From Solibacillus silvestris (lineage in GTDB: Bacteria; Bacillota; Bacilli; Bacillales_A; Planococcaceae), in NCBI GenBank assembly GCA_001586195.1, contig CP014609.1, positions 2,942,501-3,006,500 of the forward strand: a stretch of DNA of 64,000 bases. The letters run 5' to 3'. Below are positions 28,173 through 53,751 of this stretch, piece after piece; positions within the stretch are counted from its first letter, which is position 1, and every line of letters begins with the position of its first letter. Both the position numbers and the translations under genes were made by a program. The notes under the pieces are model-generated. The model did not search any database and was not told where the DNA came from. It was given only the letters and a program-made list of their open reading frames with translations.

Positions 28173-30983
28173 TCAAAAGTCAGGCCTTGTTAACTCTATA
28201 TAGTTGGTTTCAATTTTAATCTTAGAAAACTTCTCTTTTAAAGTTTTATACATTTGCTCACTAGCCGTTGTAAAAAAGATTTGTTCTCCTTTAGAAGCAA
28301 ATTCCCCAAGTAAATCTAAAAAACATGCTACCTGTCCTTCATCCATATTCGCTACTGGCTCATCAAACATTAATAGCTTTGGAACATTTGTTGCAGAAAA
28401 ATGAAGGGCTAACAATATAGATAACGCAATTGCTGTTCTTTGTCCTGTACTAAGCTCATGGGGTTTTGATAGTTGATCATAGTGTTTCCTCTTTAGCAAA
28501 ATACCCTCTGGTACAACAACAATTTCTTCGAATTCGTTTGAAGCATGCAATGACTTGAAATATTTATTTATTTTTCCAATATTTTGATTTACAATTTCCT
28601 CTGCATAAGAAGATAATGCTCTTAGACCATTAATTCCGTCTACAGCTTCTTTTACATGGTTCAAAGAGACTTTTAATTTCTCAATTTCTTTTTCTGTTTC
28701 CTTCATTCTTCTTTGATAATATTCAGGGGAATCAAATTCATTAATTAAGTTCTTACATTTGATATGTGCCTCTTTGAACAAATTTAGCCAGGTTACTATT
28801 TTCATATCTTCAGGTATTGTAAAATATGCTGAACCTGCTTTTATCAATTGTACAACATTGTTTATTTCTTTTAAGATTTTACTCTTCTCTTCAAATATTT
28901 CCTGCTTTTCAATTTTATTCCCAAAAATTCTTTCTTTGTCAAGTAAATATTTATGAGTTGTATCCTCTAACTCTTTCAACTTAGCTTCAAGATTCGCTTT
29001 CTGTCGTAATTTTTCATCTCTTGACTCTTTTAAATAACTAATAAATTGTTTTAAATCTAAATATGCATTTAAAAATAATGTATTTGTATTCAAAATATGT
29101 TCTGCTTCATTAATTTTTTCTAATGTAAACCCTTCATTTGCTAATAAGGAGAGCTGTTCTTCCGTTTTTTGAAGTTCGTTTTCAGTCTCGTCGTAGTTAC
29201 CAATTACTGCTTTCATTTGCTGTAAATCTATGGTGAAATCTTTTCTCGTCAACCCTTTTATCTTGCAAGCTTCTTCATATAATGCCAAAACATTCTGACT
29301 GTCCTCATGTCTAGAGAGCTTCAACCTAATAGTTGATATATCATGTTCAAGCTCTCTCTTTTCTTTTAATATAGAAGCAATCCCTTTTTCTTTTTTTGTA
29401 CTTACAGTCATTTGTATTTGCTCAATTAATTTACTCTTAGATATTGAGCTTGTTCCACATAATGGGCAATTTTGATGAGAGGAATCAGCATATTCTAAAT
29501 ATTCAATGCCCAAATCTACAAGTTGTAATTGGATTGTTTCCATCTTATTAAATAAATTTTTCATTTCTGATTCATTTTGCGCTAAAGTCTGGTACTGATT
29601 TTCGTAATCTTTAAGCGCTTCTTTAAGATGCTTGATTTCCTCAGTTTCCAATAAAAAAATTACATCCAGTTCATGCACCTTTTGATAAGACTTTTTATTA
29701 ACCTGGATAAAGTAAAGATATTGTCTTATTTGTTGTTCATAGGCACTTAATTCTTTTACCCTAGATACAATCTTTTCATTTAAAAGTATAGGGGATAGCA
29801 GTTTGCAACTTTCCAATGTCTCTTCAATATATTTAATCTCTTTGTTTTTTTCTTTTATTTCCCTTTCAGTTTGAAAAGTTTTCTCTTTTATTTCTAAGTT
29901 AGAATCGTTTAACTTTAGAAAAGCTTGCCTGTCTTCTTCTATTTCATCCGAAATACTACTTATACTGCTTAATAGAGACTGCCTTTTCTGCATAATTTCT
30001 AAGTATGTTTTATTATTCTCAACATAAATATTTTGATCTACAGTTTCAATGTGCTGTAATAAAATTTCGAAAAATTCTAAAATCTCTTCTTTATTTGTTT
30101 TCAATCTCTCTATATATCGAACATTTATGTTCATCTTTTGTAAAAGTGATAAAGTGTTAGACAACTTAACATTATACTGAGATGAGTTTTCTTCAGATGC
30201 CCATTGTTTGTACATACTATAGCTCGAAAGCCTATCTTCATACTTTTTAGTTAATTCATTCAATTGATTTTCAAAAGCATCTTTATATCGTAGCCAGTTT
30301 TTCTCCATGACAATAACTTGGTCACTAAATAGAAGTCTAGAAAACTTATCTATGTAGTTGGAATCTTTTCTCTTCGCAGGGTCGACTGATTCCTCAAGAG
30401 CAAATTTGTAAGCAGAATAAGTATCAAAGAAATTGAACCGAAAAAATTGGTCATTTAACATTGCCTTCCCAGTTCCAGAGGAAGTTCCGTACCAAAAAGC
30501 TTCTAATTTCTTAAGCATGTCCGTTTTTTTACTTGATGAAAGTATCGTTTGTCCATTCTGAGTAGTACAAATTACTTCAGTACTCATATTTTTATATGTT
30601 TTATCTTTATAATCCGTAACACTTCTAATTTCATTTGTTATAGCAAATTCAATTGCTTCTAATAAGGATGATTTACCAGTTCCATTCTTACCATAAATAA
30701 TATTTACTTGTTTAAATTCCACAGAGTTATAGTTTATCGACGAACTAGGCCTAAATTCATGTAAATAAACCCCATCTATTTTATGAATAATCGGTAGATC
30801 CTCACCACCATTTGCAACCTTCAGACCTTTTTTTATTGCTAATGAATTAATACTACTAGATAAAAATGATTCACCTTCTATATAATTATTAACTTTTGTA
30901 TTAGAAAATTTCTCAGTTAGGATACCCGTAAGCTTAACATTTTCTAGTTGTAATAACCAATCATGTATAGGATTTAATAACAT
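28173..30983 (-). CDS. SMC/Rad50-like ATPase with a CXXC hook
   Basis: A 936-residue AAA-type ATPase. Walker A GKNGTGKSS is near residue 98; long coiled coils run from about 240 to 480 and 520 to 780 with a CPLCG zinc-hook-like motif near 506 at the turn; the ABC signature LSTGQRTAIALS is near 844 and Walker B LLMFDEP near 870. This is the head-coil-hook layout of Rad50/SbcC. No nuclease partner gene is adjacent. AGAGGAG precedes the ATG. It opens the left side of the defence island, so a DNA-sensing defence role is inferred; it belongs to no system I can name. Confidence 0.75.
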   Translation of the reverse strand: MLLNPIHDWLLQLENVKLTGILTEKFSNTKVNNYIEGESFLSSSINSLAIKKGLKVANGGEDLPIIHKIDGVYLHEFRPSSSINYNSVEFKQVNIIYGKNGTGKSSLLEAIEFAITNEIRSVTDYKDKTYKNMSTEVICTTQNGQTILSSSKKTDMLKKLEAFWYGTSSGTGKAMLNDQFFRFNFFDTYSAYKFALEESVDPAKRKDSNYIDKFSRLLFSDQVIVMEKNWLRYKDAFENQLNELTKKYEDRLSSYSMYKQWASEENSSQYNVKLSNTLSLLQKMNINVRYIERLKTNKEEILEFFEILLQHIETVDQNIYVENNKTYLEIMQKRQSLLSSISSISDEIEEDRQAFLKLNDSNLEIKEKTFQTEREIKEKNKEIKYIEETLESCKLLSPILLNEKIVSRVKELSAYEQQIRQYLYFIQVNKKSYQKVHELDVIFLLETEEIKHLKEALKDYENQYQTLAQNESEMKNLFNKMETIQLQLVDLGIEYLEYADSSHQNCPLCGTSSISKSKLIEQIQMTVSTKKEKGIASILKEKRELEHDISTIRLKLSRHEDSQNVLALYEEACKIKGLTRKDFTIDLQQMKAVIGNYDETENELQKTEEQLSLLANEGFTLEKINEAEHILNTNTLFLNAYLDLKQFISYLKESRDEKLRQKANLEAKLKELEDTTHKYLLDKERIFGNKIEKQEIFEEKSKILKEINNVVQLIKAGSAYFTIPEDMKIVTWLNLFKEAHIKCKNLINEFDSPEYYQRRMKETEKEIEKLKVSLNHVKEAVDGINGLRALSSYAEEIVNQNIGKINKYFKSLHASNEFEEIVVVPEGILLKRKHYDQLSKPHELSTGQRTAIALSILLALHFSATNVPKLLMFDEPVANMDEGQVACFLDLLGEFASKGEQIFFTTASEQMYKTLKEKFSKIKIETNYIELTRPDF

Positions 30984-31948: not shown

Positions 31949-32131
31949 ATGAATAAGTTTCAAGAACAATTAATAGCTTCTATCGCTGAAGATCATAATC
32001 TCTCTACTAAAACATTATCTGATATCTTAAAAACAGCTAATGCTTTTGCATATAAAAAAACTACATCGGGTCAAAGAATTAACGAATACTACGGTTTAAT
32101 AAAATTTGCAGTAAATAACGAAACAAAATAG
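31949..32131 (+). CDS. Small protein of the second DndD/DndE operon
   Basis: A 60-residue protein starting MNKFQEQLIASIAEDHNLST, alpha-helical in appearance, with a basic middle. GAAAGGA lies eight bases before the ATG; the longer frame from 31901 has none. It ends ten bases before the second dndD and is clearly first in that operon. Small proteins of this kind accompany DNA-modification systems, but no function is known to me. Confidence 0.65.
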   Translation: MNKFQEQLIASIAEDHNLSTKTLSDILKTANAFAYKKTTSGQRINEYYGLIKFAVNNETK

Positions 32132-32141
32132 GAGACCTAAA

Positions 32142-34196
32142 ATGCAATTTAAAAAATTAATATTCAAAAATTATAAAACTTATTATGGAACTCAAGAAGT
32201 AGATTTAAGCATTCCTAAGAATAGTAATGATGAAATTGATAAAAATATCATTTTATTTGGTGGATTGAATGGAGCAGGGAAAACTACCTTTCTAAAAGCA
32301 ATCCTTTATATTTTGTTTGGGAAGCGTGGCATCACAAATAGTACAGATCCGAAAGAAATTGAAAAAGAATATGTAAAAGTCTTCTCAAATGTAATCAATA
32401 ATACTTTTTTTGATGAAGGTGGTAACGAATGTTCTGTATCATTAGTCCTTGAAACGGATGCAGGTGCTGAATGGAAAATTTCAGTGAAATGGTATATTGA
32501 TGCATACAAAAAATCAGGGCATGAAGTACGTGAAATTACAATAAAAGAAACAAGTAAATCTTTACCTAAAAAAGTTAGGATTGATAACCTTGATAGTTAC
32601 TATCAATTTATTGATCGTTTAATTCCATTTTATGCAGCACCTTTCTTTATTTTTGATGGCGAAGAAATTCGTACATTAATTGAAAAACAGAATACGGAAG
32701 AAATGAAAAATGCGATTCAAAAAATTTCCGGTATGAAATCAAATACTCAATTAATTAATGATTTATCGACTTTAAAAAACAATCTTACCAAAGAGATAAC
32801 AAAAGCAAGTGGATCTAAGGATATCCAAAGTATTCAAGATAAGTTTGATGAAATTTCAGGTAAGTTAGAAGAAATGAAAAAACGTGCTGATGTAGGGTCA
32901 TCAAAACTTCAAGAACTAAAAGCCGAACAAAAACAACTTCAATCTACTAGACATGAAAAATTATTAATTAATTCCAAGTCCCGGGAATCTATTTCTAAAA
33001 AAATCGGACAAATTGAACAGCACATTTCTTTAAAACAACAAGAAATCATTAGTTTTTTCAAGGACAATATGATTCAAATTTTAATTTCAAGTAAAATACC
33101 AGCACTAAAAAAACGTATTTTAAATGAGAAGAAACACCGTGAACAACAATCGATGAATAATATGATCTTACAACCATATGAAAATTTTATAAAGAAATTA
33201 TTAACTGTGACTACTACCCCTTCGTTAACTGAAGAACAAATTAAACAGTTAAAAGTAGCAGGTGAAAGTATTTGGTTTGAAAATAGTAATCGAAAGGTTG
33301 AAGAACTTCCAGACTTAGAAGAATTACATGATTTAAATAATAGCGACTTAAATTTCCTATTAAATCTTTCTACAAATACAATAAAACCATTAGTATCTCT
33401 AATTAATGATATTGACCGCCTCAACACTGAACATGAAGAAATTATATTACAATTAAAAAATGCACCTGAAGCAACGGACACATCTAAAGAAGAAAAACAA
33501 ATTGAAAAATTGACTGAAGCAATTGGAAAAGAACAATTGCGTCAAACGGCTCGAATTAATAATATGAGTAAACTTGCTGAAGAAAAGCGCGCTTTAGAGA
33601 CAAAATTAACTAAAAATAAAGTTGTTGGTGGTAACGTTGATGCGCTCTATGCAGAATTACAGTATTTAGAACGTGTTATTGCTGCTATTGTTAAATACGA
33701 AGATGAATACACATATAAGAAAGCGATGATTATCAAAAATGAATTCGAATTAATGCTTAAGAAACTTTTCCGAAAGCAAGATGAATTCGGGAAAATTGAA
33801 TTCGATATTGATACATTTACTATTCGTCTTTATAACGATAAAATGCAAGAAATTAGTATCCAAGAGCGTTCTGCTGGTGAAATGCAAATGATTTCTTCAT
33901 CACTTATTTGGGCATTAACTCGTGCCTCAAATTTAAATCTGCCAGTTGTTATAGATACTCCACTTGGCCGATTAGATAGTCACCACCGTACTCACTTAAT
34001 AGAACATTATTATCGCCATTTAAGTGAACAAGTTATTATTTTATCTACTGACACAGAAATTACTTCTGAATATATTAATATTATGAAAGAATGTTCTGCT
34101 AAACAATATTTATTACATTACGATGAACAGAAAAAATATACTGTTATCCGGGATGGGTATTTTAACTTTATTAAGGACGTGAAAGAAATTGGGTAA
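32142..34196 (+). CDS. Second DndD-family ATPase
   Basis: A 684-residue SMC-like ATPase with all DndD landmarks: Walker A GGLNGAGKTTFL near 40-50, FIFDGEEIRTL near 170, coiled coils through the middle, signature RSAGEMQMI near 577 and Walker B VVIDTPLGRLD near 602. The other dndD at 46535 has the same landmarks but is clearly divergent, so this is an old paralogue rather than a recent duplication. DndD is the ATPase partner of DndC/DndE in phosphorothioation. AGGAG precedes the ATG. It overlaps the DndE-like gene by eight bases. Intact motifs argue for a working protein; a role distinct from the first DndD is inferred. Confidence 0.85.
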   Translation: MQFKKLIFKNYKTYYGTQEVDLSIPKNSNDEIDKNIILFGGLNGAGKTTFLKAILYILFGKRGITNSTDPKEIEKEYVKVFSNVINNTFFDEGGNECSVSLVLETDAGAEWKISVKWYIDAYKKSGHEVREITIKETSKSLPKKVRIDNLDSYYQFIDRLIPFYAAPFFIFDGEEIRTLIEKQNTEEMKNAIQKISGMKSNTQLINDLSTLKNNLTKEITKASGSKDIQSIQDKFDEISGKLEEMKKRADVGSSKLQELKAEQKQLQSTRHEKLLINSKSRESISKKIGQIEQHISLKQQEIISFFKDNMIQILISSKIPALKKRILNEKKHREQQSMNNMILQPYENFIKKLLTVTTTPSLTEEQIKQLKVAGESIWFENSNRKVEELPDLEELHDLNNSDLNFLLNLSTNTIKPLVSLINDIDRLNTEHEEIILQLKNAPEATDTSKEEKQIEKLTEAIGKEQLRQTARINNMSKLAEEKRALETKLTKNKVVGGNVDALYAELQYLERVIAAIVKYEDEYTYKKAMIIKNEFELMLKKLFRKQDEFGKIEFDIDTFTIRLYNDKMQEISIQERSAGEMQMISSSLIWALTRASNLNLPVVIDTPLGRLDSHHRTHLIEHYYRHLSEQVIILSTDTEITSEYINIMKECSAKQYLLHYDEQKKYTVIRDGYFNFIKDVKEIG

Positions 34197-34563
34197 TACA
34201 AAATTTAACATTTCCAAAGAAGCTAAGGACATTGTCGACTCATTAAAAATATCTTTAGATATTAATGATACTCCTATTATTATTAAATTAGGTTTAGCTA
34301 AAGGAATTTCACTCTTGAATCCATCTGAAGAAATTCAAAAGTTTGAAGGCTCAGGCAATTGGTTAGTCCCTGAAAATATTATTAAAGAACGTGACTACTT
34401 ACTTTTCAAACATTTAATAATCAATGAGTTGAACCAAGTGATTTCAGATATTGACATCAATAAATATTTTGCATTCTATATTGAAAAAGGTCTTCGCGAG
34501 ATTCAAAATCAAATTGAGAACAAAACTTCAATTGAGGATATTCGAGTATTAATACTAAGTTAA
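34189..34563 (+). CDS. Second DndE-like protein
   Basis: A 124-residue protein, the same length as DndE at 48520. Both open with a short F.(I/L)..S....D/EI..SL segment, have a ribbon-helix-like hydrophobic stretch (PIIIKLGLAKGISLLNP here, NILSRIAVAMSLNDP there) and close with a FYIEKGLREI / RHIERGIRML helix. DndE binds nicked DNA and is required for sulphur insertion. Start is TTG, overlapping the dndD2 stop by eight bases. Homology is by layout and pair position; alignment should confirm it. Confidence 0.65.
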   Translation: MGNTKFNISKEAKDIVDSLKISLDINDTPIIIKLGLAKGISLLNPSEEIQKFEGSGNWLVPENIIKERDYLLFKHLIINELNQVISDIDINKYFAFYIEKGLREIQNQIENKTSIEDIRVLILS

Positions 34564-34567
34564 AAAA

Positions 34568-34604
34568 GACAGTATATGTAGCTAATTTAGCTACGTATAC
34601 TGTC
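34568..34604. terminator. Terminator of the dpt operon, shared gap with dndE2
   Basis: GACAGTATATGTAGCTA pairs with TAGCTACGTATACTGTC in 16 of 17 positions around a three-base loop. On the minus strand six T follow, so it ends the dptFGH transcript; it also lies directly after dndE2. Confidence 0.9.
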
Positions 34605-34611
34605 TCTCACA

Positions 34612-37600
34612 TTATAATCGATCATTTAAAGATGTAATATTAACAATTTCGGTTTGAGGCTTTGTTAAATTACCATTTCGGTCTAATTGTGGGCCTTGTA
34701 CAATACACTGACCTTTTTTTAAATTCAATAACTTCGTTTCCCAATACTTTCGATCCCCTTGCTCATTATTTGCTAAAGTTTGGGCGATATAACTTACATC
34801 TTCATCTGACTGTGCAAAGTATACTTTTTGAGTTGCATTTTGTAGTCTAGCTAACTCGTCAGAATCCATTTGAGATTTTAAAAATTGGGTTGCAAACCAT
34901 GCTGACCAACCAAACTTACGACCTTCCGTTAAAACGCGCGCAGATGGTGCTTCATCATTGTGGTCTAAATTTTGGGCCTCATCAAGGATAACTGGCATAG
35001 GTGTATTTTTATTTCCACTGCGAATTGAGAAGTTCCATAAATCCCATAGTAAAAACTCTGTAATAATTAATTGAACATCTCGATTAAAGCCAGTTAGCTG
35101 GATAATAAATACGTCACCCTGTGAATCCAGGTGTTCTTTCCAATTCATTGTTTGTTCATTAGTAAATGGATTACGATCAATTAAAGGTCGAATTTGAGAC
35201 AATGTTTTTGTAGCTGTATTTGAACCCTCTTCTTCCAATAACTGTTTAAGATGCAATAATGACATCTGTTTATCGTATCGCTCTAATCCAATAATTACTT
35301 GCTCATAAATAAGATTTAATTGTTGAATCCCTAAAGTACTATAAACCGCTGAAAACACACTCTTTATTCTTTCTGCAATATCTATATTAGATTCTTGCAT
35401 CGTCATATTTGCAATTTGTCTAACAGTTCTAGAAAACGGATTGATTGGAAGCTGCTCTGTATAAACAAATCTTTGTTTAAACTTATCACCTAAAGCCATT
35501 ACAAATTCATCTTCTAACTGATCTGGTAAGAAACCGTCTGTATAGTCAACAATAATACTTGGTACTCCTTGTCGTGATTTCTCCAATAATAAACATTGCA
35601 TGAAATACGTTTTCCCTTGTCCCGATTTCCCGGAAATCAACAAGTGCCTGTTAGCTAATTCTTTATGTCCGTATTCCCAATAAACTTCTTTGGTGGTATT
35701 TTCAACTTTCCCTAATAAAACTCGAACTTCTTCAAGTGGTTTTTTGGACGGAACAAGCTCTTTCTCTTCAATCGGTATATCGGGAGTAACGGGTACCTGA
35801 GTATCATTATCTTCTGCCCCATCTTTTAAACCTTCTTCAAAATTAGAATTAATATCTGTATCTGTATTTATATTTATATTTATATTTATATTTGTATCCT
35901 CGATTAAATCCCCTATTACATCTTGGTTAGATGGCTTAAACTCCTTAGAAGTTTCTTTACTTTTAAAAACAGGCTCTACCACTTTTTCCTTTTCTGCATT
36001 TAACTCAGGATTCTCATTAGTTGCAACAGAATCTCCAGAAACTTCTTTACTTGCAATACGCTCTTTTATTTGTTCTTTCACTTGAATGGTATATAAATTT
36101 TTTAAAAATCTCGCTTTAATTAAGTCATTGTCTCCTTCATGGATCCAGTCAATTGTAGATTCCATATTCTTAACAATGCCGTTAAAACCATCTTCTTGTG
36201 AAAAATCAATCATTTGAATCTGTTCATCTAAATAAACTGCTCTTGTAGATCTACCTTCTTTAAAAGATACAACTGCGCCTTTACCAATATAATCTGTAAG
36301 ATGATCTGTAATCGTAAATTCAAGTTTTAATAATTTCTCAACCACTTGTTGTGATAGTTTATACTCTTTTTCTGGCCAAATATCGCCTTGGACTAATTTA
36401 TTGATATTAGATAAGAATAACTGAACAAAAAAGTTTTTATAGAATTTCTCTTTAAACGTATTTGGATAATCATTGATTAATGCATCCAAAATAATTTTTT
36501 TCGTTTGAAGTACTTGTTCTTTTGCTTTTGAAATCACATCCGGACCATTTAGTCCAAATTTAACTTCAATTGGGTAAAAGTGCAGGACAATTTCACCGTC
36601 TAATTCTTCTAAGCCAATTAACAGCAAATCGTCACTAGTTGGTCCCTTCACTCCTAAGTTTTTTGCAGAGAAAATACCACCAACTTTTGATAAATTAAAA
36701 ACACCTGCAACTCGTAAAATTTCCTCTAATGAAATTGGTACCCACTTAATTGTTGAGTGGTCTAACAAGGCTAAAGTATATTTGATTGCAGAAATAATAC
36801 TTAGTTTTTCGCGATCTGAATAACCTTTTGTTCCAATTATACGTAGTAACCATTCTCCATTGAATGTATTAAAGGCTTGAATTGTATTTATAATATTAGC
36901 TTTTGTGCCTTCAATCTCTCGCTTCGCTAGAAATTCCTCTATTACTTTGTAATATTGTCCTGATTTATTGGTAACTGTAATAGCGTCAAATTTACTTGAA
37001 GACGTGTATTGATCACTATAGTGAATAATTACTAAATCATTACTAAATGTGTTAAAGAATCCTAAATCAACAGTAGGATCAATAAAAGTCACCCAATGTG
37101 AGCGTTCAAAAATTTCTAATAAGGTCGATTCATCTTCAGTATTTACACGAGACAAAACTGTATTCCCTTTAATATATGAATCATTACCATCATTACGAGA
37201 GTTACCAACTAGTTCATTTGTATAATAAGCAGTCTTTATTAAATAATCATTTTCATCCATATTATATCCCTTAATACCAAAACCAGATTTATAAGTTTCC
37301 GCATCACGCATTGCGGGCACACTAGAATATAAACCTTGTAAAGCTAAATCTGATTTCATTTCATGCATTGATTGAATTGCTGAGCTTTCTTGTGCATGCA
37401 TTTTATAGAATGTAATATGAGCATAACGTAGTCCACCATCTTCATTAATAGGCCTACTACGATAGAAATAAAGGTTTTCACGAATTACTCGTAAAATAGA
37501 TTCTCCATCAAGATCTTTTGTGCCTTTAATTTTTATACCTATATACGTTTCAACTTGTTCTAAGGTTTTTAACTGAGCAAATCTTTCAAAAGCACTCTTT

Positions 37601-39987
37601 ACTAGGGTATTTGTATAAAGAGTTACTTCCATTGGCTTAATATAACTTAAACCTTTACTGCTAATCTCTTTGATCATAAAGTTTAAAATACCGTTTAGAA
37701 CTTCTTGATCGTCAGGCAAGTTCATCACATTAATTAATATAGGCGCCTTCGAATTTTCAGTAAATAAATAACCGAAATGTTCTTTAAACTGTTTTAACTT
37801 ATCAGCAATGACATTTGATAAATACTGAACAGAATCTGCTGCTGTTACTTGATTAACAGATTTTAAAACTAACCACTCTGGTGCATCACCTTGATGTTGT
37901 GGTCTATATAAACTGCCACGTTCAACAAATGGTAATAATGCTTCAGGAGATAATCGGTTTAAAATTACATTATCGATTTCTTCATTTCCTAAAAGTTCAT
38001 AAATCTTTAACTTATAGGCAACCATCAAAGGATGGAAAGGTGTAATATAAAGCGTATCTTCAGCCTCAATCATACCTAGTCGATATAAACTCAAACCTTT
38101 TTTACCTGCTGGCTTTCCTTCTGTAAAATTTGAAATCTCATTAATATAAGTTTTAATATATTCTTTTCCACGTTCTTCATATTCTTCCGAAACATAGGAA
38201 ATACTCGGGATCTTTGTAGCTGTTTTAAAAACAGACATAAAACGGCTATATGCTTCTCGCATATTCTCACTTAAATCAATATCTATTGGTTCTAAAATAC
38301 CTGATTTAATTACTCCTGAACGGTAACCTTGGTCAATCCATTTAGACTCCCACTCGAAATAATCTAAATAATTCTCCTGTAGATAATATTCTCGATGATT
38401 ATGCATTAGTCGATTTAACTCTTTAACCCAAACCATATCACTCATTGACTCACGCACTAGTTTCCAAATACGAGAACCTAAAATTGGCGTTGAATCAGTT
38501 AGCTCACTATTAATTAAAAATGGAATTATTTTATTCTCTACATTAAAGTTAAAAACAATATCCTCATCATCATCAAATAAAGGACCATCAACAGAAATTT
38601 CGTATGATGTCAGTTCATCTACCTCAAATGTTTGATCATTTTGTTTTAAATTAACCTGATTTGGGAAACTAGTACCAAAGCTAATTTTATTTCCTGTAAG
38701 TGATAAAGAAATCCGCTGCTTCTTCGCTTCTAATAAATATTGAGAGCCGATCCCTTCAATTAATTCCTTCTGTATTGGCAGCACACAAATAATTAAATCG
38801 GCCCCTAAAGCAGCACGCTTTTCATGCTTATATGTTACATGTGCAAATACTGTTCCATTATTATTTGTAGGTATGGTCATATGAATATTAGATTTTTTCA
38901 CGTCCACTTCTACATTCTTAACACCTTTAGGCTGTGAAACATATTCTTTACTTAAAGATTTGATGGGGCCACCTAGACTAAATTTAGCAACTAATGTAAT
39001 CTGTTCTGCTTGATCTGGATTGAAAACAATAATGTGTCGTTTTCGTTTTTTTGATGAGTTATCACCGCTTGCCCGATCCCATACAAGTTCCCCATTTTCC
39101 GCTTTAATTTCTAAGTAACTAACCATTGCTGATTTATTTTCAGTCAAATATTTCTGATGATCTTTGTTCACTTCCGTAAATGGAACCTCTTGCCAATCAT
39201 CTTTTTTCATCATCGATGCACCATCAACAGTAAAGTACTTTTGTAATTGTTCTTCCGTATTGCTATATTCATTGGCTTCACGAACGATTTCGTAAAGTTC
39301 ACGGTTTTCAGCAATACGATTTTTTAAACCTTTACCTGTAAATGTTTCAAGATCCGGGTCATTAAACATACCTAACTTTTTATAATCTTCAGATTCGATA
39401 TTCCCTTTGTACAATGTTGCAAGAATTTCTTCAAACTCAAATATAGATAACTTAATTAATTTATGATCATTTACAATTCGCTCTAAGTAATCACTTAATA
39501 TTAACTTTTCTGCTTTCGATAAATTACTATTCAAAAGTTTATCGTGTAAATTTTGAGATAATGATGTTATATGTAAAGGCATCCCTTCGCTCTGTACATC
39601 TAAACTACCTCCAGGTATTGTATCTAGTTGCTCTGATACAATACTAATTAAGGCTGTATTTTCCCAACCGGGTTGTTGGTCACTTACTAAGTTTCGAATT
39701 AAAGCTAAATAATCTGTTAATACACCTTCCTTTGTATAAGCTACAACAAGACGAATTTCGCCAAACTTTAATGCAAAAGTCTTGTAAGGTTCTCCGAATT
39801 CGTGCACGTACTCAAATTGTTCGACAAGATTTGGTTCAACAGATTTTAAAGCATCAGCCATAGATAATACTTCTGCCGCTTCATCAAGTCGTAGAAAATA
39901 TCGATTACCTTTTGTTAATTTATTTTCTTCGTCCTTCCAATAACGAATTAACTCTTCTGCTAAATAGTTATAAAATTGGTTTGACAT
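34612..39987 (-). CDS. dptH: Phosphorothioation-dependent restriction protein DptH
   Basis: A very large 1791-residue protein. The C-terminus is a HerA/FtsK-like translocase with Walker A GKSGQGKTYF near 1455 and Walker B PVILDEAQNLD near 1650. Near 1120-1145, DDLLLIGLEELDGE followed by FYPIEVKFG reads like the D...ExK site of a PD-(D/E)XK nuclease. A low-complexity NINININ linker near 1370 joins the two. DptH with DptF and DptG cuts DNA that lacks the sulphur mark. The ATG at 39987 overlaps dptG by 20 bases. Family certain; the nuclease site is my reading. Confidence 0.9.
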   Translation of the reverse strand: MSNQFYNYLAEELIRYWKDEENKLTKGNRYFLRLDEAAEVLSMADALKSVEPNLVEQFEYVHEFGEPYKTFALKFGEIRLVVAYTKEGVLTDYLALIRNLVSDQQPGWENTALISIVSEQLDTIPGGSLDVQSEGMPLHITSLSQNLHDKLLNSNLSKAEKLILSDYLERIVNDHKLIKLSIFEFEEILATLYKGNIESEDYKKLGMFNDPDLETFTGKGLKNRIAENRELYEIVREANEYSNTEEQLQKYFTVDGASMMKKDDWQEVPFTEVNKDHQKYLTENKSAMVSYLEIKAENGELVWDRASGDNSSKKRKRHIIVFNPDQAEQITLVAKFSLGGPIKSLSKEYVSQPKGVKNVEVDVKKSNIHMTIPTNNNGTVFAHVTYKHEKRAALGADLIICVLPIQKELIEGIGSQYLLEAKKQRISLSLTGNKISFGTSFPNQVNLKQNDQTFEVDELTSYEISVDGPLFDDDEDIVFNFNVENKIIPFLINSELTDSTPILGSRIWKLVRESMSDMVWVKELNRLMHNHREYYLQENYLDYFEWESKWIDQGYRSGVIKSGILEPIDIDLSENMREAYSRFMSVFKTATKIPSISYVSEEYEERGKEYIKTYINEISNFTEGKPAGKKGLSLYRLGMIEAEDTLYITPFHPLMVAYKLKIYELLGNEEIDNVILNRLSPEALLPFVERGSLYRPQHQGDAPEWLVLKSVNQVTAADSVQYLSNVIADKLKQFKEHFGYLFTENSKAPILINVMNLPDDQEVLNGILNFMIKEISSKGLSYIKPMEVTLYTNTLVKSAFERFAQLKTLEQVETYIGIKIKGTKDLDGESILRVIRENLYFYRSRPINEDGGLRYAHITFYKMHAQESSAIQSMHEMKSDLALQGLYSSVPAMRDAETYKSGFGIKGYNMDENDYLIKTAYYTNELVGNSRNDGNDSYIKGNTVLSRVNTEDESTLLEIFERSHWVTFIDPTVDLGFFNTFSNDLVIIHYSDQYTSSSKFDAITVTNKSGQYYKVIEEFLAKREIEGTKANIINTIQAFNTFNGEWLLRIIGTKGYSDREKLSIISAIKYTLALLDHSTIKWVPISLEEILRVAGVFNLSKVGGIFSAKNLGVKGPTSDDLLLIGLEELDGEIVLHFYPIEVKFGLNGPDVISKAKEQVLQTKKIILDALINDYPNTFKEKFYKNFFVQLFLSNINKLVQGDIWPEKEYKLSQQVVEKLLKLEFTITDHLTDYIGKGAVVSFKEGRSTRAVYLDEQIQMIDFSQEDGFNGIVKNMESTIDWIHEGDNDLIKARFLKNLYTIQVKEQIKERIASKEVSGDSVATNENPELNAEKEKVVEPVFKSKETSKEFKPSNQDVIGDLIEDTNININININTDTDINSNFEEGLKDGAEDNDTQVPVTPDIPIEEKELVPSKKPLEEVRVLLGKVENTTKEVYWEYGHKELANRHLLISGKSGQGKTYFMQCLLLEKSRQGVPSIIVDYTDGFLPDQLEDEFVMALGDKFKQRFVYTEQLPINPFSRTVRQIANMTMQESNIDIAERIKSVFSAVYSTLGIQQLNLIYEQVIIGLERYDKQMSLLHLKQLLEEEGSNTATKTLSQIRPLIDRNPFTNEQTMNWKEHLDSQGDVFIIQLTGFNRDVQLIITEFLLWDLWNFSIRSGNKNTPMPVILDEAQNLDHNDEAPSARVLTEGRKFGWSAWFATQFLKSQMDSDELARLQNATQKVYFAQSDEDVSYIAQTLANNEQGDRKYWETKLLNLKKGQCIVQGPQLDRNGNLTKPQTEIVNITSLNDRL
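35853..35900. repeat. Eight hexanucleotide units inside dptH
   Basis: TATCTG, TATCTG, four TATTTA, TATTTG and TATCCT lie in tandem, encoding alternating Ile/Asn/Thr/Asp. Unit gain or loss would change linker length without shifting frame. Confidence 0.8.
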
Positions 39988-41398
39988 ATTGAACATCACC
40001 ACTATCACTTTTTTTGTCTAAAATATTATGATTATTAAATAAGTCGACTATTTCTTCTATAGAATAACGGTCAAATACAATGCCTCGTTTCTCAAACTCT
40101 AATAATAAAGTTTTGAACGGCATTCGTTCATCTTTAACAATGACACTAGTCATTAAAATCAAGAAATCATGTGATACGTTTAACAAATTCCCTAAGTTTC
40201 CTCGCGACTTTAAGAAAACGCCTTTCCCTAAAAAATCGATTGATTGGCCATACTTAGTCTTTGCATCATTATGCATCTTACTTTTCACTAGATTAAATAA
40301 TTGGTTCAATAAGCCATCTACTGTATCTTCATCTGCAGATATTAAATCAGACAATTCTTCATCTATTTTAACTATCTTTTGCCAAGCGCAATAAGTTTGA
40401 ATTAAATTTTTTAAATCAACTTTAAATTGGTTAATATACTGTTCCCCATGAGATTCAACATGTTTATAAAGGGTAGAATAATCAACAATCTCTTTTTCTT
40501 TTGTCTTTGGATTAAATTTATTATAACTTAACAATCTCAAAGTATATTCATGAGGGAATAAGTCAGCAGCCTGATCTTTTACTAACTTATAACCATGTAA
40601 GCTACTAGCGACTGGTCTTTTTTTCGTTACTGCTTCCCACTCAAGTGCAAAATACAACGGTTCAATTTCATCAAAATTACCATTTGTAAACTTCCCAAAC
40701 TTTCGTAGGCATTGAATTGCATACATGAAAGTGTAATAGTTTATAATCATTTCAAAATTAGCAATAAAATAATCTTTATATTTCATTAAGAACTTCAAAT
40801 CATTTCTAAACATTTGAGTAAATGAAGGTAACAAATCTGAATAGCCTTGGTCTTGGTTTAAAGGCTTTGATGAAATTAATTGGTCAACTTCACCTATAAT
40901 TAATTGCGTTAAAATATCATCGGTCTCTTTATTTTTAAAGATTTCTTCAATCTCTGAATCTTGAGCGATTAACACATCATTAATAAACTCTGCTAAATTG
41001 CGTAAAATACTTTGGTTAACTTCACTTCCCCCAATAAAGTTATACAAATAAGTATGGACTATATTAATATTTTCATCATTGAATAAATAATTATCAATGA
41101 ATCTTATAAAATCCACTTTTGCTTCATCAGAACCGAATTGTAATTGTTTACTATTCGCGATAAATTCACTTAGTTTATTTGAACCTTCAAAGTGATGAAA
41201 AGACAATTCATCTAATTTTTTGTTATTTAATTTGTAACCTGTTATTAATCTTGCTAAATCGCTAATAACTATATTGAAATTGTCTTTAATTTGAGCTGTA
41301 TTTTTAGTTCTGAATGGAAATATTTTTTTCGAATTCATTAAAATATGCGCACTTGTTTTTGGAAAGTCAATTTCATTTATTAAAAGTATTTGTTCCAT
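39968..41398 (-). CDS. dptG: Phosphorothioation-dependent restriction protein DptG
   Basis: A 476-residue protein of the DptG family, known only from its place between dptF and dptH; no catalytic motif is visible. It is mostly helical and acidic, with LLSYNKFNPKTKEKEIVDYS near 290-310. The ATG at 41398 is chosen for AGGTGGA upstream; it begins four bases after the dptF stop and its end overlaps dptH. Identity rests on gene order and size plus overall pattern. Confidence 0.85.
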   Translation of the reverse strand: MEQILLINEIDFPKTSAHILMNSKKIFPFRTKNTAQIKDNFNIVISDLARLITGYKLNNKKLDELSFHHFEGSNKLSEFIANSKQLQFGSDEAKVDFIRFIDNYLFNDENINIVHTYLYNFIGGSEVNQSILRNLAEFINDVLIAQDSEIEEIFKNKETDDILTQLIIGEVDQLISSKPLNQDQGYSDLLPSFTQMFRNDLKFLMKYKDYFIANFEMIINYYTFMYAIQCLRKFGKFTNGNFDEIEPLYFALEWEAVTKKRPVASSLHGYKLVKDQAADLFPHEYTLRLLSYNKFNPKTKEKEIVDYSTLYKHVESHGEQYINQFKVDLKNLIQTYCAWQKIVKIDEELSDLISADEDTVDGLLNQLFNLVKSKMHNDAKTKYGQSIDFLGKGVFLKSRGNLGNLLNVSHDFLILMTSVIVKDERMPFKTLLLEFEKRGIVFDRYSIEEIVDLFNNHNILDKKSDSGDVQYVKPIL

Positions 41399-41402
41399 GT
41401 TG

Positions 41403-43688
41403 TTAGTCCACCTTTTCAAATATGAATCCTTGATCTTCAAATTCATCATTTAAAAGTCGATATTTTTTATTTTCAGCAATAAAATCAATGATTACTTCAT
41501 CTTTTTTATTTCCATAGTTCATTAGCTTCTCTAAGAACTCAATAAATGTTGTTGCATCTTCCTCATCTTTTTTATTTGGTCTGTATCCTTGCTCAACCTT
41601 TACTAGGAGCTGAAAGAGTGCAAAATCAATATCTAAAGAAACGAAATTCTTTTTGTCTGAATCCGAAAATACTACTGAAATATTTTGTTTGAATGTTTGT
41701 AACTTACTTTCATGTCGTTCATCTACATTTTCCAGTCTAGGGTTCAGCTTCAGCTTTTGAGCAACAGCAAAATCATTTTCTGATATATCTAAATAAATAT
41801 ATTCACTGATTGGTGATCCCTTCCAATTGAAAAGTGTAGTCTTAAAATTTTTATAGAACTCTCTAATTTTTGGCTTTGCATTTTTATTAAAGTTGTAAAG
41901 GTAATCTAGGTATTGTTGATAGACTATATCCGAACATTGTTTTGCAAAACCTTCACTTGTTAAATAAAGCGTATTCACTACTTGATTAATTAAAAATTCA
42001 AGAATTTCTTCACCATCTGCATAATCTGTAAATGGTCGTAGCCAGTCTTTTGCAATTTCATTTCCAATTCGCTCTTCAATTAATACTTCCCAATCTGTTA
42101 AAGTATTTAATGTTACAAGAAGTTCATCAATAACTTGCACACGAGAATGTAATGGATTAACTAATCTTGCATAATCTAATAATTGTGAGCGATCAATTGA
42201 ATTAAACAATAAATGTGGTAATGTTTGAGCTAGTCGATCTGATTCTTTCAATACAATTGAATCTTTAAAGTCATGTGGAATCAAAATATCTGCCACAAAG
42301 TTTAAAAAATGACGTGAAGATACGGAATGTTTAAATTGAAGTATTACTTTTATGATAATTTGTACGACTTGTTTTTGTACAAATTCATTTGATAAGAATT
42401 CATAGTTTTCATGAATAATCGTTTTTTTTCCATTTTCTAAATCTTTTTTATACGCTAAATAGAATGGATTTTCTTCTCTTCTAGCGCAAATCTTCTGTAA
42501 TAGTGTTTCAAAGTAATTCGACTCTGCCCCATTTGGTGTTAATTCAAACATTTGATAATCCGCGAAAGACACTAAATCAAAAGGTCCATCCTCAGCATGC
42601 GTTAATATTTTAGATGAAAATAATTCACTTTTTTCTATAAACATTTTTAAATGATTATACGTATACTCATTGTGTTCACGATTAACAAAGTTATTTAATA
42701 CACCTAGATTAATTGCAATAATTACTTTTTCGTTGCTTTCATGAATATGTTGATCAGAGAAACCTTTTAAAATTTCTTCTAACGTTTCTAAAGCGGTTTT
42801 TGATGGGGAGAAACTTTCAGTAGCATCATTAAATACTTTATATTGCCCCATCATATTATTAAGATGCTGATTTAAATAAGCCAATAAATGCGACTTCCCG
42901 TCCCCTACACTCCCACTAAGCAAAATAAGATTGCTGTCTTGTTTAAAACGACTTTGTAAAATCTCTTCCACTTTTTCTTGAATTGGACGATTTACGTGTA
43001 AGTAATTTTTAAATGCACTAAATGAGCTAGCATTTTCAACTGCTTCTGCAGCAGAAATTCTTAGCTTCCCAATTTCGCGTACTAAATAATTGTCAGAGTG
43101 TTCTTCAAAGGTATGCTTAAGTTCGTTTTCAGCTTGTTCTCTAGCCTCTTCTTTTATTTCATCCGTAAGAGTAGTAGCTGCTGTTTCTTTCCCGATCATC
43201 GTTTTAAGTAGTTCTTCCATCTTTTCTTTTATTAAATCCTCTGGAATCTCTTGAACTCTCGGTAATTGTGGTTGTTCGTATGGAGGTATTATAATTTCCT
43301 CTGTTGTGTAAAACTCTATATACCATTTTGCAATATTGTACATTTCCTTATGAGCTGCATACGCTTGTTGCATATTGCCGTTTGCGTCAGAAACATGGAC
43401 AGCATCATTCCCCACTTTCCTAATAAAGTGGAAAGCGTTATTAATAGTCGATTCGAAGCATTCTTGTCTATATAAATAGTTAATTCGATCAGATAAATTT
43501 CTATAATCATGACTTTCTAAGTCTAATTTTTCTAACACCCAGATGGATTTAATAATCTCTTCAATAAATAATCGAGCTTTCGCCAATGCGCTACTAGAAT
43601 CTGTAAAAAACAGATTTTCCATTTGTTTCGCATTTATTGCCGCTTTTGGTGCTGAATTATGAAGAAAGTTTAAAAAGTATCTCTCCAT
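41403..43688 (-). CDS. dptF: Phosphorothioation-dependent restriction protein DptF
   Basis: A 761-residue P-loop ATPase. The N-terminal 130 residues resemble a DUF4145-like helical domain (FFTDSSSALAKARLFIEEII); Walker A LSGSVGDGKSHLL is near 260. It is the first gene of the leftward dptFGH restriction operon, 160 bases from and divergent to dndB. AGGAG lies nine bases before the ATG. Family call from motif and gene order. Confidence 0.88.
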   Translation of the reverse strand: MERYFLNFLHNSAPKAAINAKQMENLFFTDSSSALAKARLFIEEIIKSIWVLEKLDLESHDYRNLSDRINYLYRQECFESTINNAFHFIRKVGNDAVHVSDANGNMQQAYAAHKEMYNIAKWYIEFYTTEEIIIPPYEQPQLPRVQEIPEDLIKEKMEELLKTMIGKETAATTLTDEIKEEAREQAENELKHTFEEHSDNYLVREIGKLRISAAEAVENASSFSAFKNYLHVNRPIQEKVEEILQSRFKQDSNLILLSGSVGDGKSHLLAYLNQHLNNMMGQYKVFNDATESFSPSKTALETLEEILKGFSDQHIHESNEKVIIAINLGVLNNFVNREHNEYTYNHLKMFIEKSELFSSKILTHAEDGPFDLVSFADYQMFELTPNGAESNYFETLLQKICARREENPFYLAYKKDLENGKKTIIHENYEFLSNEFVQKQVVQIIIKVILQFKHSVSSRHFLNFVADILIPHDFKDSIVLKESDRLAQTLPHLLFNSIDRSQLLDYARLVNPLHSRVQVIDELLVTLNTLTDWEVLIEERIGNEIAKDWLRPFTDYADGEEILEFLINQVVNTLYLTSEGFAKQCSDIVYQQYLDYLYNFNKNAKPKIREFYKNFKTTLFNWKGSPISEYIYLDISENDFAVAQKLKLNPRLENVDERHESKLQTFKQNISVVFSDSDKKNFVSLDIDFALFQLLVKVEQGYRPNKKDEEDATTFIEFLEKLMNYGNKKDEVIIDFIAENKKYRLLNDEFEDQGFIFEKVD

Positions 43689-43848: not shown

Positions 43849-44895
43849 ATGGATTTATCTTTCACATATAATTTTCCAGCATTAAGAGGCTATCAAGCCT
43901 GTAAAGAATATTATGTGGTAATGTGTCCCTTAAGGTTAATCCCTAAAATTTTTCTATTTGATGAGGAAGAAATTCCTGTCGAATACCGAGCACAACGGAT
44001 CTTAAATAAATCTCGCATACCTGATATGACTAATTATATTTTAGAAAATACTACAAACTATGTTTTCTCTTCGATTACAGCATCAGTTGATGGCGAATTA
44101 ATTTTTGAACCATTGAATAAAGATATGCCTAATCAAGATTTAGGCCTACTTCGAGTTTCAATGGATGCACGATTCTTGATAAATGATGGTCAGCATAGAA
44201 GAGCTGCGATCGAAGAAGCTTTGAAGATTGCCCCAGATCTTGGAAACGAGACAATTTCAGTTGTCTTCTTTCATGATACTGGATTGAATCGATCACAGCA
44301 GATTTTTTCTGATTTAAATCTCCATGCAATTAATACTACTTCTTCAATAGGAATTTTATACGATTACCGTGATCCATTATCTATAATTACTAAAGACTTG
44401 GTCTCTGAAAATCATTTTCTATCAAGGTATACTGATAAAGAAAGAGTTTCTCTTTCTAAAAATTCGCCAAAAGTTCTTGCTTTAAATTTTATTCACAACA
44501 CGAACAAACGATTACTTTGCAAATCAAAGGGCTCAGAAATTTCTAATGAGGAAACAACGTTCTTAATCCAGTTTTGGGATATTATTTGCGAGTCAATACT
44601 TGAATGGCAAGCAGTATTAAATAAGGAACTCTCCCCTAGAGATTTGCGAATAAATTATATTGTAGGACACAGCGTGCTAGTAGAAGCTCTAGGTGAAGTT
44701 GGTAAACAGTTGAAGGAAGAATATCCAGATAGTTGGCAAGATAATTTAAAATTATTAAGACATATAGATTGGAGCCGCTCTAATACAAATGATTGGCTTG
44801 GGCGCTGTTTTAATGATAATGGAAGGATCCAAAAAACAAATCATAACATTACAGCAACAGCAAATAGAATAAGAGAATTGATTGAACAGTTATAA
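43849..44895 (+). CDS. dndB: DndB, DGQHR-domain regulator of phosphorothioation
   Basis: A 348-residue DGQHR-domain protein. The signature FLINDGQHRRAAI is near residue 110, with an N-terminal YNFPALRGYQACKEYYVVMC strand region typical of DndB. DndB represses dnd transcription in Salmonella and tunes modification. It is first in the rightward dndBCDEA operon, with AGGAG eight bases upstream. The palindrome at 43822 would let it control itself and perhaps dptF. Confidence 0.93.
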   Translation: MDLSFTYNFPALRGYQACKEYYVVMCPLRLIPKIFLFDEEEIPVEYRAQRILNKSRIPDMTNYILENTTNYVFSSITASVDGELIFEPLNKDMPNQDLGLLRVSMDARFLINDGQHRRAAIEEALKIAPDLGNETISVVFFHDTGLNRSQQIFSDLNLHAINTTSSIGILYDYRDPLSIITKDLVSENHFLSRYTDKERVSLSKNSPKVLALNFIHNTNKRLLCKSKGSEISNEETTFLIQFWDIICESILEWQAVLNKELSPRDLRINYIVGHSVLVEALGEVGKQLKEEYPDSWQDNLKLLRHIDWSRSNTNDWLGRCFNDNGRIQKTNHNITATANRIRELIEQL

Positions 44896-44922
44896 CTTTT
44901 TAATTAATAGGAGTTGAACATT

Positions 44923-46521
44923 ATGAATGAAAATATCATTTCAAATTTATTTACAAATGAAAAATCAATAGTTGATTTAGCGAAAGAGCAAATAAAACAG
45001 GCCTATAAAGAAGACGATCGCCCTTGGGTTGTAGGCTATAGTGGTGGTAAAGATTCCACAGTAGTGGTTCAACTTGTTTTTGAAGCATTGTCTGAACTGA
45101 ATCCTGTTGATCTAAAAAAGAAAGTTTACGTCATTTCATCAGATACATTAATTGAAACACCATTAATTATAAATTCAATTAATAAAACGTTATCAAATAT
45201 TCAAGATGCTGCATTTAAAAAGGGGTTACCAATTGAAACTCATAAAGTTAAGCCGGAACCTACAAATTCTTTTTGGGTTAACTTAATTGGACGTGGTTAC
45301 CCTTCACCTAACCAGACATTTCGTTGGTGTACAGACCGTTTAAAAATCGAACCTGCTAACTCTTTTGTCATGAATAAAGTTTCTTCTTTTGGAGAAGTAA
45401 TTATGGTGCTTGGTGTACGAGAAGATGAAAGTGTGTCTCGTGGTAATAGTATCCGTGAACATACAATTGAAGGGCAATTATTTATGCGCCATTCAACATT
45501 ACCTAATGCATTTGTTTACGCACCGATCAGAAACTTTAACTTAGACGATGTGTGGAATTATTTATTAAATACCCCTTCTCCATGGGGAGATGATAATTAC
45601 GAATTACATCGCCTATATCAAGATTCAAGTAGTGGCGAATGTCCTCTTGTTATCGATAAAAATATTAAAGAAAGTGCTGGTTCATGCGGCAATAGTAGAT
45701 TTGGATGTTGGGTATGTACAGTTGTTACAGAAGATAAAGCACTAACTGGTTTTATCCAGAGTGGACATGATTGGATGAAGCCATTATTAGACTTCCGTAA
45801 CTGGTTAACATCTATTCGTGATGACCGCACAAAACGAATGAAATATCGTATGAATGGTCAAATCTATTTCCGAGATGTTAAAGTTGATGAAGTAAATGGC
45901 ATCCCATGTGTCATGATCCCTAAAAAGTCAGGTAGAAATGCTGTTAATATTCCTTATAAAGATTATAGAGTTATTGAGAAACATGAAATCCAACAATACA
46001 TTGATCAAAATAATATCGATTTAGGTGCAGCAGAAGATCAAATGATATTGATTCGTTATGAAGAAGAAACATTAGATGGGGAAATTGTTGAGAAACATGC
46101 ACAACTCGGTCTAGGACCATACACAATGGAAACTCGTCGTGAAATTTTGACAAGACTTTTAGCGCTTCAAGTTACGGTTAAACATCCTGAAGATCCTCAT
46201 TACGAATTGATTTCTGAAGAAGAACTTAAAGAAATTCGTCGCACTTGGCTTAAACAAGGTGATTGGGAAGACTGGGTACCGATGCTGTACGCTAAAGTTT
46301 ATGGAAAGGATACACAAATCACTTGGGAAAAAGATGACCGTCCTTTATTGGATAATGAACAAATTTCTCAGCTTGATATGTTATGTAAAGAATTCAATGT
46401 AGATATGAAAGTAATGCGCAAATTAATTAACCTTGAAAAAAACTTTGCCGGTTATAAAATTCGCCGTGGCATTGGTGATGAAATCGGTAAGATTTTAAAA
46501 CAAGACTATCTACATCTATAG
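44923..46521 (+). CDS. dndC: DndC, PAPS-reductase-like sulphurtransferase
   Basis: A 532-residue ATP-pyrophosphatase-fold protein. The PP-loop SGGKDST is near residue 41; cysteines in WCTDRLK (136), SGECPL (238) and AGSCGNSRFGCWVC (255-267) can hold the iron-sulphur cluster known for DndC. It activates the DNA backbone for sulphur insertion. The ATG at 44923 is chosen for AGGAG upstream; it follows dndB by 27 bases. Confidence 0.95.
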   Translation: MNENIISNLFTNEKSIVDLAKEQIKQAYKEDDRPWVVGYSGGKDSTVVVQLVFEALSELNPVDLKKKVYVISSDTLIETPLIINSINKTLSNIQDAAFKKGLPIETHKVKPEPTNSFWVNLIGRGYPSPNQTFRWCTDRLKIEPANSFVMNKVSSFGEVIMVLGVREDESVSRGNSIREHTIEGQLFMRHSTLPNAFVYAPIRNFNLDDVWNYLLNTPSPWGDDNYELHRLYQDSSSGECPLVIDKNIKESAGSCGNSRFGCWVCTVVTEDKALTGFIQSGHDWMKPLLDFRNWLTSIRDDRTKRMKYRMNGQIYFRDVKVDEVNGIPCVMIPKKSGRNAVNIPYKDYRVIEKHEIQQYIDQNNIDLGAAEDQMILIRYEEETLDGEIVEKHAQLGLGPYTMETRREILTRLLALQVTVKHPEDPHYELISEEELKEIRRTWLKQGDWEDWVPMLYAKVYGKDTQITWEKDDRPLLDNEQISQLDMLCKEFNVDMKVMRKLINLEKNFAGYKIRRGIGDEIGKILKQDYLHL

Positions 46522-46534
46522 AAGAGGTATTATT

Positions 46535-48505: not shown

Positions 48506-48519
48506 ACGGAGATTAAAAT

Positions 48520-48891
48520 ATGAACTTTAGATTAAAAACTTCAAAAGGAACTGAAGAAATATTAAAATCACTTCAAAACTCTACTGGTCTTACATGGAAC
48601 ATTCTTTCTCGAATTGCAGTTGCTATGTCCCTAAATGATCCAACTATACCAGCAGAAGTTCCAGATACTTCTGGAATAGAAATTCATCGAAACACAATGA
48701 CAGGTGAACATGATTATGTATATAAAGCAATCATTAGGCAACATGCAGGATACCATGTACCAGAAGAAGAATACTTTCCTGATTTATTCAACCGGCATAT
48801 CGAAAGAGGTATTCGAATGTTGGAAGGTGAATATAAATTATTTGGTAATTATGATAAATTACTTACGAACCTATTAAAAACCGGAAACTAG
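48520..48891 (+). CDS. dndE: DndE, DNA-binding subunit of phosphorothioation
   Basis: A 123-residue DndE protein: FRLKTSKGTEEILKSLQNST at the start, WNILSRIAVAMSLNDP next, and FNRHIERGIRMLEGEY near the end. DndE forms a tetramer that binds nicked double-stranded DNA. CGGAG lies nine bases before the ATG. It is followed directly by dndA. Confidence 0.93.
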   Translation: MNFRLKTSKGTEEILKSLQNSTGLTWNILSRIAVAMSLNDPTIPAEVPDTSGIEIHRNTMTGEHDYVYKAIIRQHAGYHVPEEEYFPDLFNRHIERGIRMLEGEYKLFGNYDKLLTNLLKTGN

Positions 48892-48900
48892 GTGATCTCT

Positions 48901-50019
48901 TTGTTATATTTAGATAACTCAGCTACTACCCCAATCCATCCAGAAGTAAAAGATGCAATGCTACCTTTCTTATTAGAAGAGTTCGGCAATCCTTCTAGTA
49001 AATATTATGATCTAGCAGCTTACGCAAAAGATGCTGTTAAAATTGCACGACAAAATGTAGCAAAACTTATTGATTGTCGACCTGATGAAATTATTTTTAC
49101 AAGTGGATCAACTGAAAGTAATAACTTTATTATTAAGGGCATTACAGATCAGCGTAAAAATAAAGGTAAGCATATTATCACAACGAATATTGAACATCCT
49201 TCTGTTCTTGAAGTATGTAAATACTTAGAAAGCATTGGATTCAATTTGACTGTTTTAGAAGCTAATCAAAATGGAGTAATTACAATAGAACAATTTTCTA
49301 ATGCTGTAACTCCTGAAACGATCTTTGCATCTATTCAATGGGGTAATAATGAAATTGGTTCATTAAATCCAATTATAGAAATTTCAAAAATTTGTATTGA
49401 ACATGATATTTTTCTACATTCAGATGCAACACAGGTTATAGGAAAACGATTAATTTCTTTAGATAATTTACCTGGTTTAAGTGCTATATCAATTTCCGCG
49501 CATAAGTTTTTTGGACCAAAAGGTGTTGGTGCAACATTCTTAAGGAAAGATCAATATAATCTCTTCCCTCCTATTACACCTCTACTTCATGGGGGCGGTC
49601 AGGAAGAAGGTTTACGAAGCGGTACTTTAGCAGTTCATAATATTGTAGGTTTAGGTAAAGCCAGTGAAATAGCTTCACAGCGACAAAATAAAAACATAAA
49701 AAAATTAAATGAATTAGAGCAACATTTAATTGAGATTTTAAATTCTAAGTTTGGAACCAATATTAAATATAATCATTCAAGTGAGAATAAAATTCCTGGT
49801 ATCATTAATGTTCAATTCATCGGGATAAATAATGAAATCTTAGTCAAAAAGTTAGCTCCAGTGATCGCTGTATCTACAGGATCGGCATGTAGTTCTTCTA
49901 AACCATCACATGTATTAGCAGCAATTGGTTTATCACTTAATGAAATCAGACAGACAATCCGAATCTCTTTATCGCCGTATATAGAAAAAGAAGATTTGAA
50001 TATTTTCAATAATTTGTAA
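48901..50019 (+). CDS. dndA: DndA, cysteine desulphurase
   Basis: A 372-residue NifS/IscS-like PLP enzyme supplying sulphur to DndC. LYLDNSATTPIHPEV opens it, the PLP lysine is in SAHKFFGPKG near 202, and the catalytic Cys in STGSACSSSKP near 330. Starts at GTG 48892 and TTG 48901 are both possible; AGGTG fits the TTG better. Unlike Streptomyces, dndA is last in the operon here. Confidence 0.93.
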   Translation: MLYLDNSATTPIHPEVKDAMLPFLLEEFGNPSSKYYDLAAYAKDAVKIARQNVAKLIDCRPDEIIFTSGSTESNNFIIKGITDQRKNKGKHIITTNIEHPSVLEVCKYLESIGFNLTVLEANQNGVITIEQFSNAVTPETIFASIQWGNNEIGSLNPIIEISKICIEHDIFLHSDATQVIGKRLISLDNLPGLSAISISAHKFFGPKGVGATFLRKDQYNLFPPITPLLHGGGQEEGLRSGTLAVHNIVGLGKASEIASQRQNKNIKKLNELEQHLIEILNSKFGTNIKYNHSSENKIPGIINVQFIGINNEILVKKLAPVIAVSTGSACSSSKPSHVLAAIGLSLNEIRQTIRISLSPYIEKEDLNIFNNL

Positions 50020-52279: not shown

Positions 52280-52280
52280 C

Positions 52281-53736: not shown

Positions 53737-53751
53737 ATATGGAGACGGTGG
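53737..53751. repeat. Attachment site at the tmRNA 3' end
   Basis: ATATGGAGACGGTGG overlaps the last bases of ssrA and matches the site at 27746 in 14 of 15 positions. Confidence 0.6.

Follow-up and report, generated by a model that had tools for sequence, protein, structure and literature searches.

A three-gene operon beside the phosphorothioate (PT) modification genes of Solibacillus silvestris probably encodes an adaptor of the restriction side, one that would check the PT status of DNA and hand unmodified DNA to a linked nuclease; we put the probability of this reading at roughly 0.55. The operon encodes a small protein (SP), a second DndD-family ABC ATPase (D2) and a second DndE-fold protein (E2), and we refer to it as the trio. 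We favor a role in sensing and restriction because the trio retains the plan of the DndCDE modification complex without its enzyme and is inherited with a nuclease.

The window, a 64,000-nucleotide stretch of contig CP014609.1, contains three dnd-related units: dndB, C, D, E, A (43849-50019, + strand), dptF, G, H (43688-34612, - strand) and the trio (31949-34563, + strand), which adjoins the two others. A first-pass annotation, made from the sequence alone, had correctly placed the trio genes at 31949-32131 (SP, 60 aa), 32142-34196 (D2, 684 aa) and 34189-34563 (E2, 124 aa, with a TTG start and an 8-bp overlap with D2), all on the + strand. It had also considered dndBCDEA and dptFGH to be complete, and profile searches agreed. 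NCBIfam cut-offs were passed on the + strand by DndB (43849-44895; TIGR03233, 504 bits), DndC (44914-46521; TIGR03183, 589 bits), the canonical DndD, here D1 (46535-48505; TIGR03185, 503 bits), and the canonical DndE, here E1 (48520-48891; TIGR03184, 84.6 bits; Pfam DndE, 92 bits). On the - strand, the equivalog cut-offs were passed by DptF (41403-43688; TIGR03238 from residue 223, 366 bits), DptG (39968-41449; TIGR03236, 235.6 bits) and DptH, or DndH, of the trio-linked subtype (34612-40008; TIGR03237, 1007 bits). The exception was the DndA cysteine desulfurase (48892-50019, +), whose best hit, TIGR03235, scored 455 bits and did not reach its cut-off of 480.

The trio and dptH lie tail to tail, 48 bp apart. 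The gap from E2 to dptH contains an 18-bp hairpin (34567-34605, assigned to no strand; -25.7 kcal/mol), a possible terminator according to sequence and RNA folding, which was absent from the output of a simple terminator scan. The window’s DptF is extended at its N terminus by about 200 aa (about 43074-43688) that contain a DUF4145 match (E 1.1e-5), and residues 7-215 resemble a type I restriction subunit (E 4.5e-19). The specificity loop of the window’s DndC, GYPSPNQTFRW (residues 128-138; 45295-45327), carries NQT and by the rule of PMC12193691 predicts a GpsATC modification motif; NQQ, NQK or RQK stands in its place elsewhere among the trio loci. Upstream of the trio lies a 936-aa SMC/Rad50-like ATPase with PADLOC LmuB hits (28173-30983, -). 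At the island edge, AIPR-family and FRG-domain proteins stand side by side (50201-53399, -) next to ssrA (tmRNA, 53740-54093), and such a pair is also close to the trio in G853 (joined L068+L069, 6558-9937).

We compared each trio protein with its canonical counterpart. D2 scored 299.5 bits against the DndD model TIGR03185 (cut-off 245.85) and retains its ATPase motifs intact (Walker A GLNGAGKTT, FFIFDGEEI, RSAGE and VVIDTPLGRLD), which upholds the earlier suggestion of an intact second DndD. Each of the 14 D2 proteins checked carries the Walker A and signature patterns, and six aligned ones share an identical Walker B region, DTPLGRLD. A tree of 42 proteins (14 D2, 22 canonical DndD including E. 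coli and archaeal sequences, and 6 PbeC-type) resolved three groups, with SH-aLRT values of 99 for D2 and 95 for the clade holding all sampled canonical DndD, although it does not fix the branching order of the three. D2 is therefore a single clade apart from the sampled canonical DndD and from the hook-bearing CxC/PbeC ATPases; it groups with the DndD family rather than with generic SMC-like ATPases, the alternative that the first-pass annotation had raised. Recent duplication of the local dndDE as the origin of the trio was rejected, since D1 and D2 part at the base of the sampled tree. A scan of viral contigs found no D2 relative, and one scan of genome contigs returned a single locus.

The second DndE had also been proposed from sequence, and here curated models were of little help: E2 scored 20.1 bits against Pfam DndE, under the threshold of 25, and had no NCBIfam hit. 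Profile-profile comparison of the E2 and E1 families with hhalign, in contrast, gave a match at 97.4% (P 1.5e-11, 121 columns). For the AlphaFold2 model of E2 (pLDDT 79), the 15 best PDB matches were 15 chains of the DndE entries 4LRV, 5WTU and 7X4E, with Foldseek probabilities of 0.99-1.00 but E-values of 0.025-0.11. By profile comparison and predicted fold (the double RHH DndE fold), E2 is a DndE, although one missed by the curated models; the refuting outcome named in the first-pass annotation, no DndE profile match for this protein, did not hold.

SP was modeled as three helices (pLDDT 74), in keeping with its earlier description as a small helical protein, and scored 27.1 bits (E 4.7e-6) against Pfam Sp-DndD (PF20306), whose cut-off is 27.2. 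When an HMM built from 14 SPs was run against 9,265 frames of the collected loci, the 14 SPs led the list and DndC accounted for 15 of the next 16 hits, aligned nearly always at the DndC C terminus. The hhalign comparison of SP with DndC gave P 2.1e-5, while eight other families gave P 0.18 or worse, and none of 200 column shuffles reached the SP-DndC score. The Pfam Sp-DndD model itself matched the C-terminal region of 9/10 further DndC proteins, exceeding its cut-off only on an archaeal DndC (38.4 versus 27.2 bits) and matching the others more weakly (E 8e-6 to 0.9). In the window’s DndC, the SP-like docking tail spans residues 479-530 (46348-46503, +), with the Pfam match at residues 490-529 (E 0.0015).

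The SP-like segment corresponds to residues 433-482 of E. coli DndC, which an AlphaFold3 model and pull-downs identified as the part that binds the globular domain of DndD and in which L458, E462 and R471 are required (PMC12193691); an E. coli DndC that we checked has these residues at those positions. Most SPs linked to DptFGH have A or S in place of E462, which SPs at loci with an AddAB-like nuclease (described below) keep, so SP may dock differently in detail from DndC. In three genomes (G853, G885 and G909), an in-frame fusion joins SP to the N terminus of D2; in the remaining, unfused loci SP directly precedes D2. Profile evidence thus shows SP to be homologous to the C-terminal, DndD-docking tail of DndC. 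Given this homology and the SP-D2 fusions, the trio resembles a DndCDE complex that shares DndD, DndE and the DndC docking segment with the modification machinery but does without the PP-loop sulphurtransferase, and in its absence the trio itself cannot add sulphur. The first-pass annotation’s statement that there is no second DndC was borne out in that the genome searched has one DndC only, but it needs qualifying, as SP resembles the DndC tail and a remnant of a second DndC is thus present.

In composition, the trio is reminiscent of the PbeABCD and CxC ABC-ATPase-DndE-SP systems (Xiong 2019, PMC6459918; Rakesh 2024, PMC10853773). These systems likewise comprise a small protein, a DndD-like ABC ATPase and a DndE-like protein in the same order, and they too have dnd modification genes as neighbors and a helicase-nuclease as effector. 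Unlike PbeABCD, however, the trio lacks PbeA, and D2 lacks the CxC hook, which was found in none of 14 D2 proteins but in 5/6 PbeC-type proteins (the sixth has CxxC). No PbeA SF2 helicase-HKD protein is encoded in the locus, and only a distant homologue (22-27%) lies about 2.8 Mb away. SP showed no profile similarity to PbeB (P 0.35), and E2 matched DndE far better than PbeD. Priestia megaterium plasmid pBMG4 and G073 carry the trio plus a separate PbeA-PbeC-type pair. PADLOC labels the window’s D2 as PbeC through model PDLC02735 (829 bits), yet D2 proteins score 612-1006 bits with this model whereas no PbeC model gives a hook-bearing PbeC more than 67 bits. At least one PADLOC model bearing the PbeC name therefore appears to capture another ATPase clade, the hookless D2. 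Given the tree, the missing hook, the missing PbeA and these scores, we rejected the filing of the trio as PbeBCD.

We found 15 trio loci in genomes or plasmids, all in Bacilli, a recurrence that sets aside a chance arrangement. One question raised at the outset was whether the three-gene set always accompanies dptFGH or also stands alone: PT-modification genes (dndC, D and E) adjoin all 15 loci, so that none lacks them, whereas three lack dptFGH. At one of these three, G803, the contig stops after D2, placing E2 beyond its end, and no DndB was seen there. The other 12 loci carry one DptFGH subtype, with linkage spanning contig breaks in G090 and G227. At G932, G803 and G1119, DptFGH is replaced by an AddAB-like helicase-nuclease pair, apparently an undescribed PT-associated effector, whose AddA-like helicase lacks the nuclease part and whose second member, a large protein, matches PD-(D/E)XK weakly. 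No DndH was found in the whole genomes of G932 and G803 or, in a search covering the locus, at G1119, and we therefore rejected DptFGH as an obligate partner of the trio. The AddAB-like pairs linked to dnd lie in L072 (6829-11746, -), L070+L071 (18690-24363, -) and L093+L094 (17799-22807, +).

The association between trio and nuclease module is also visible in phylogenies. The D2 tree splits by effector into 12 DptFGH-linked sequences and 3 linked to the AddAB-like pair (SH-aLRT 100 each), and trio-linked DndH proteins form one clade (10/10; SH-aLRT 96-100) in a tree built without G124, whose match covers the HerA domain only. The DptF extension of about 200 aa occurs at 12/12 trio loci with DptFGH versus 0/7 trio-less dnd loci, with its DUF4145 match checked in three of the trio loci. 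It was found once in a DptFGH set without DndD (G252), and we therefore rejected it as strictly trio-specific. Within the window’s family, Planococcaceae, a DndH-like hit was obtained in 21 of 261 genomes; six of these carry the trio and dndD, among them the five with the top-scoring DndH, full-length or nearly so (in G090 it is divided between contigs); a DndD match is lacking in the remaining 15. Complete dptFGH sets without a DndD match occur in G252, G128, G142, G072, G077, G024, G258, G023, G232 and G148 (L129-L138) and show varied N-terminal extensions of DptF; stand-alone DptFGH has been proposed in PMC10853773.

The DndH split and the D2 effector split each represent one event on a tree, and their counts are not independent. 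More telling for the linkage are two exchanges. The modification genes of G880 belong to a trio-less lineage, and yet they are accompanied by the trio-DptFGH package. In addition, the D1 proteins of G823 and G1119 are sisters, while G823 carries the DptFGH package and G1119 the AddAB-like package. The trio thus co-segregates with the nuclease module. We note as counterpoints that modification genes are present at 15/15 loci, which leaves some probability for a role in modification, and that the exchanges seen number two.

These exchanges bear directly on whether the trio could instead tune PT modification, with D2 and E2 forming mixed complexes with D1, E1 and DndC that alter the motif, strand symmetry or frequency. 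The constant presence of dndC, D and E, the partial agreement of the D1 and D2 trees, and the tendency of ABC ATPases to dimerize together with the retained D2 motifs would all fit such a role. However, D1 keeps to its lineage when the trio is exchanged along with nuclease modules, DndC is the predicted site of the motif-reading loop (PMC12193691), and both NQ-type and RQK loops occur among trio loci. We consider tuning unlikely. Of the three options offered by the first-pass annotation, sensing of DNA and action as a further effector are therefore favored, merged as a restriction-side sensing adaptor, while a change in the specificity of the DndC complex is disfavored, given that the trio is exchanged with the nuclease module independently of the modification module.

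For the sensing adaptor, we infer that SP docks on D2, that E2 reads DNA, and that the complex senses PT and contacts the nuclease. Reduced to the DndC docking tail, SP would occupy the DndC site on D2, while DNA binding would fall to E2 and the powering of scanning or clamping to D2. The complex would probably check DNA for phosphorothioate status and license or load the linked nuclease on unmodified DNA, this nuclease being DptFGH with the extended DptF in the window and the AddAB-like pair elsewhere. A sensing role is supported by the parallel with PbeABCD, in which the three corresponding genes, pbeB, pbeC and pbeD, are essential in archaea and depend on PT modification for their action (PMC6459918). 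DptFGH also occurs without the trio, in the trio-less dnd loci sampled here. The DptFGH of E. coli and Salmonella work without it, and so the trio is not a general DptFGH requirement.

The same parallel could be taken to mean that the trio blocks unmodified DNA by itself, through loop extrusion or clamping, with DptFGH as an independent second layer. Such mechanisms have been argued for PbeABCD, where replication stopped without visible cleavage and weak resistance persisted in a pbeA deletion (PMC6459918). Every locus found nevertheless ties the trio to a particular nuclease module, and we consider a stand-alone block slightly less probable still than tuning. Finally, the likeness of SP to the DndC tail might suggest a decoy or regulator that acts in trans, competing for D1 and limiting PT modification, but this is improbable given the three genomes with an SP-D2 fusion and the position of SP directly 5' of D2 in the others.

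Several elements of this picture were already catalogued. The Sp-DndD family is known from Pfam, whose description goes no further than a small protein found in some Dnd systems and to which we add the match to the DndC tail; PbeABCD was also known, and PMC10853773 lists CxC-DndE-SP systems and duplicated DndBDE/DndDE pairs. The latter likewise place a second DndD-DndE pair next to the dnd operon, but they are described as lying in opposite orientation, one pair usually coming with DndB, unlike the trio; in the sections consulted we found no reference to a partner resembling the DndC tail or to an exchange of nuclease modules. In the open-access literature, we found no earlier statement of the SP-DndC homology, the trio-nuclease exchange or the AddAB-like pairing. 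Nor did we find there an account of D2 as one clade without PbeA, of its split by effector, of PT-modification genes adjoining all 15 trio loci, or of similar modification genes carrying different trio-nuclease packages at two loci.

How DptFGH (DndFGH) recognizes missing phosphorothioates is not settled in the cited literature. For at least one DptFGH subtype, an enzyme-stripped modification complex inherited together with its nuclease offers a concrete candidate reader, which brings the recognition question within reach of binding and deletion assays. A likely docking role also emerges for a small protein of a kind earlier described as mostly disordered. More tentatively, and with somewhat less confidence than we hold in the adaptor itself, a catalytically empty copy of DndCDE may serve as an exchangeable PT-status reader that passes unmodified DNA to interchangeable nucleases, whether DptFGH or the AddAB-like pair. 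If true, this would help explain how PT restriction discriminates self from non-self.
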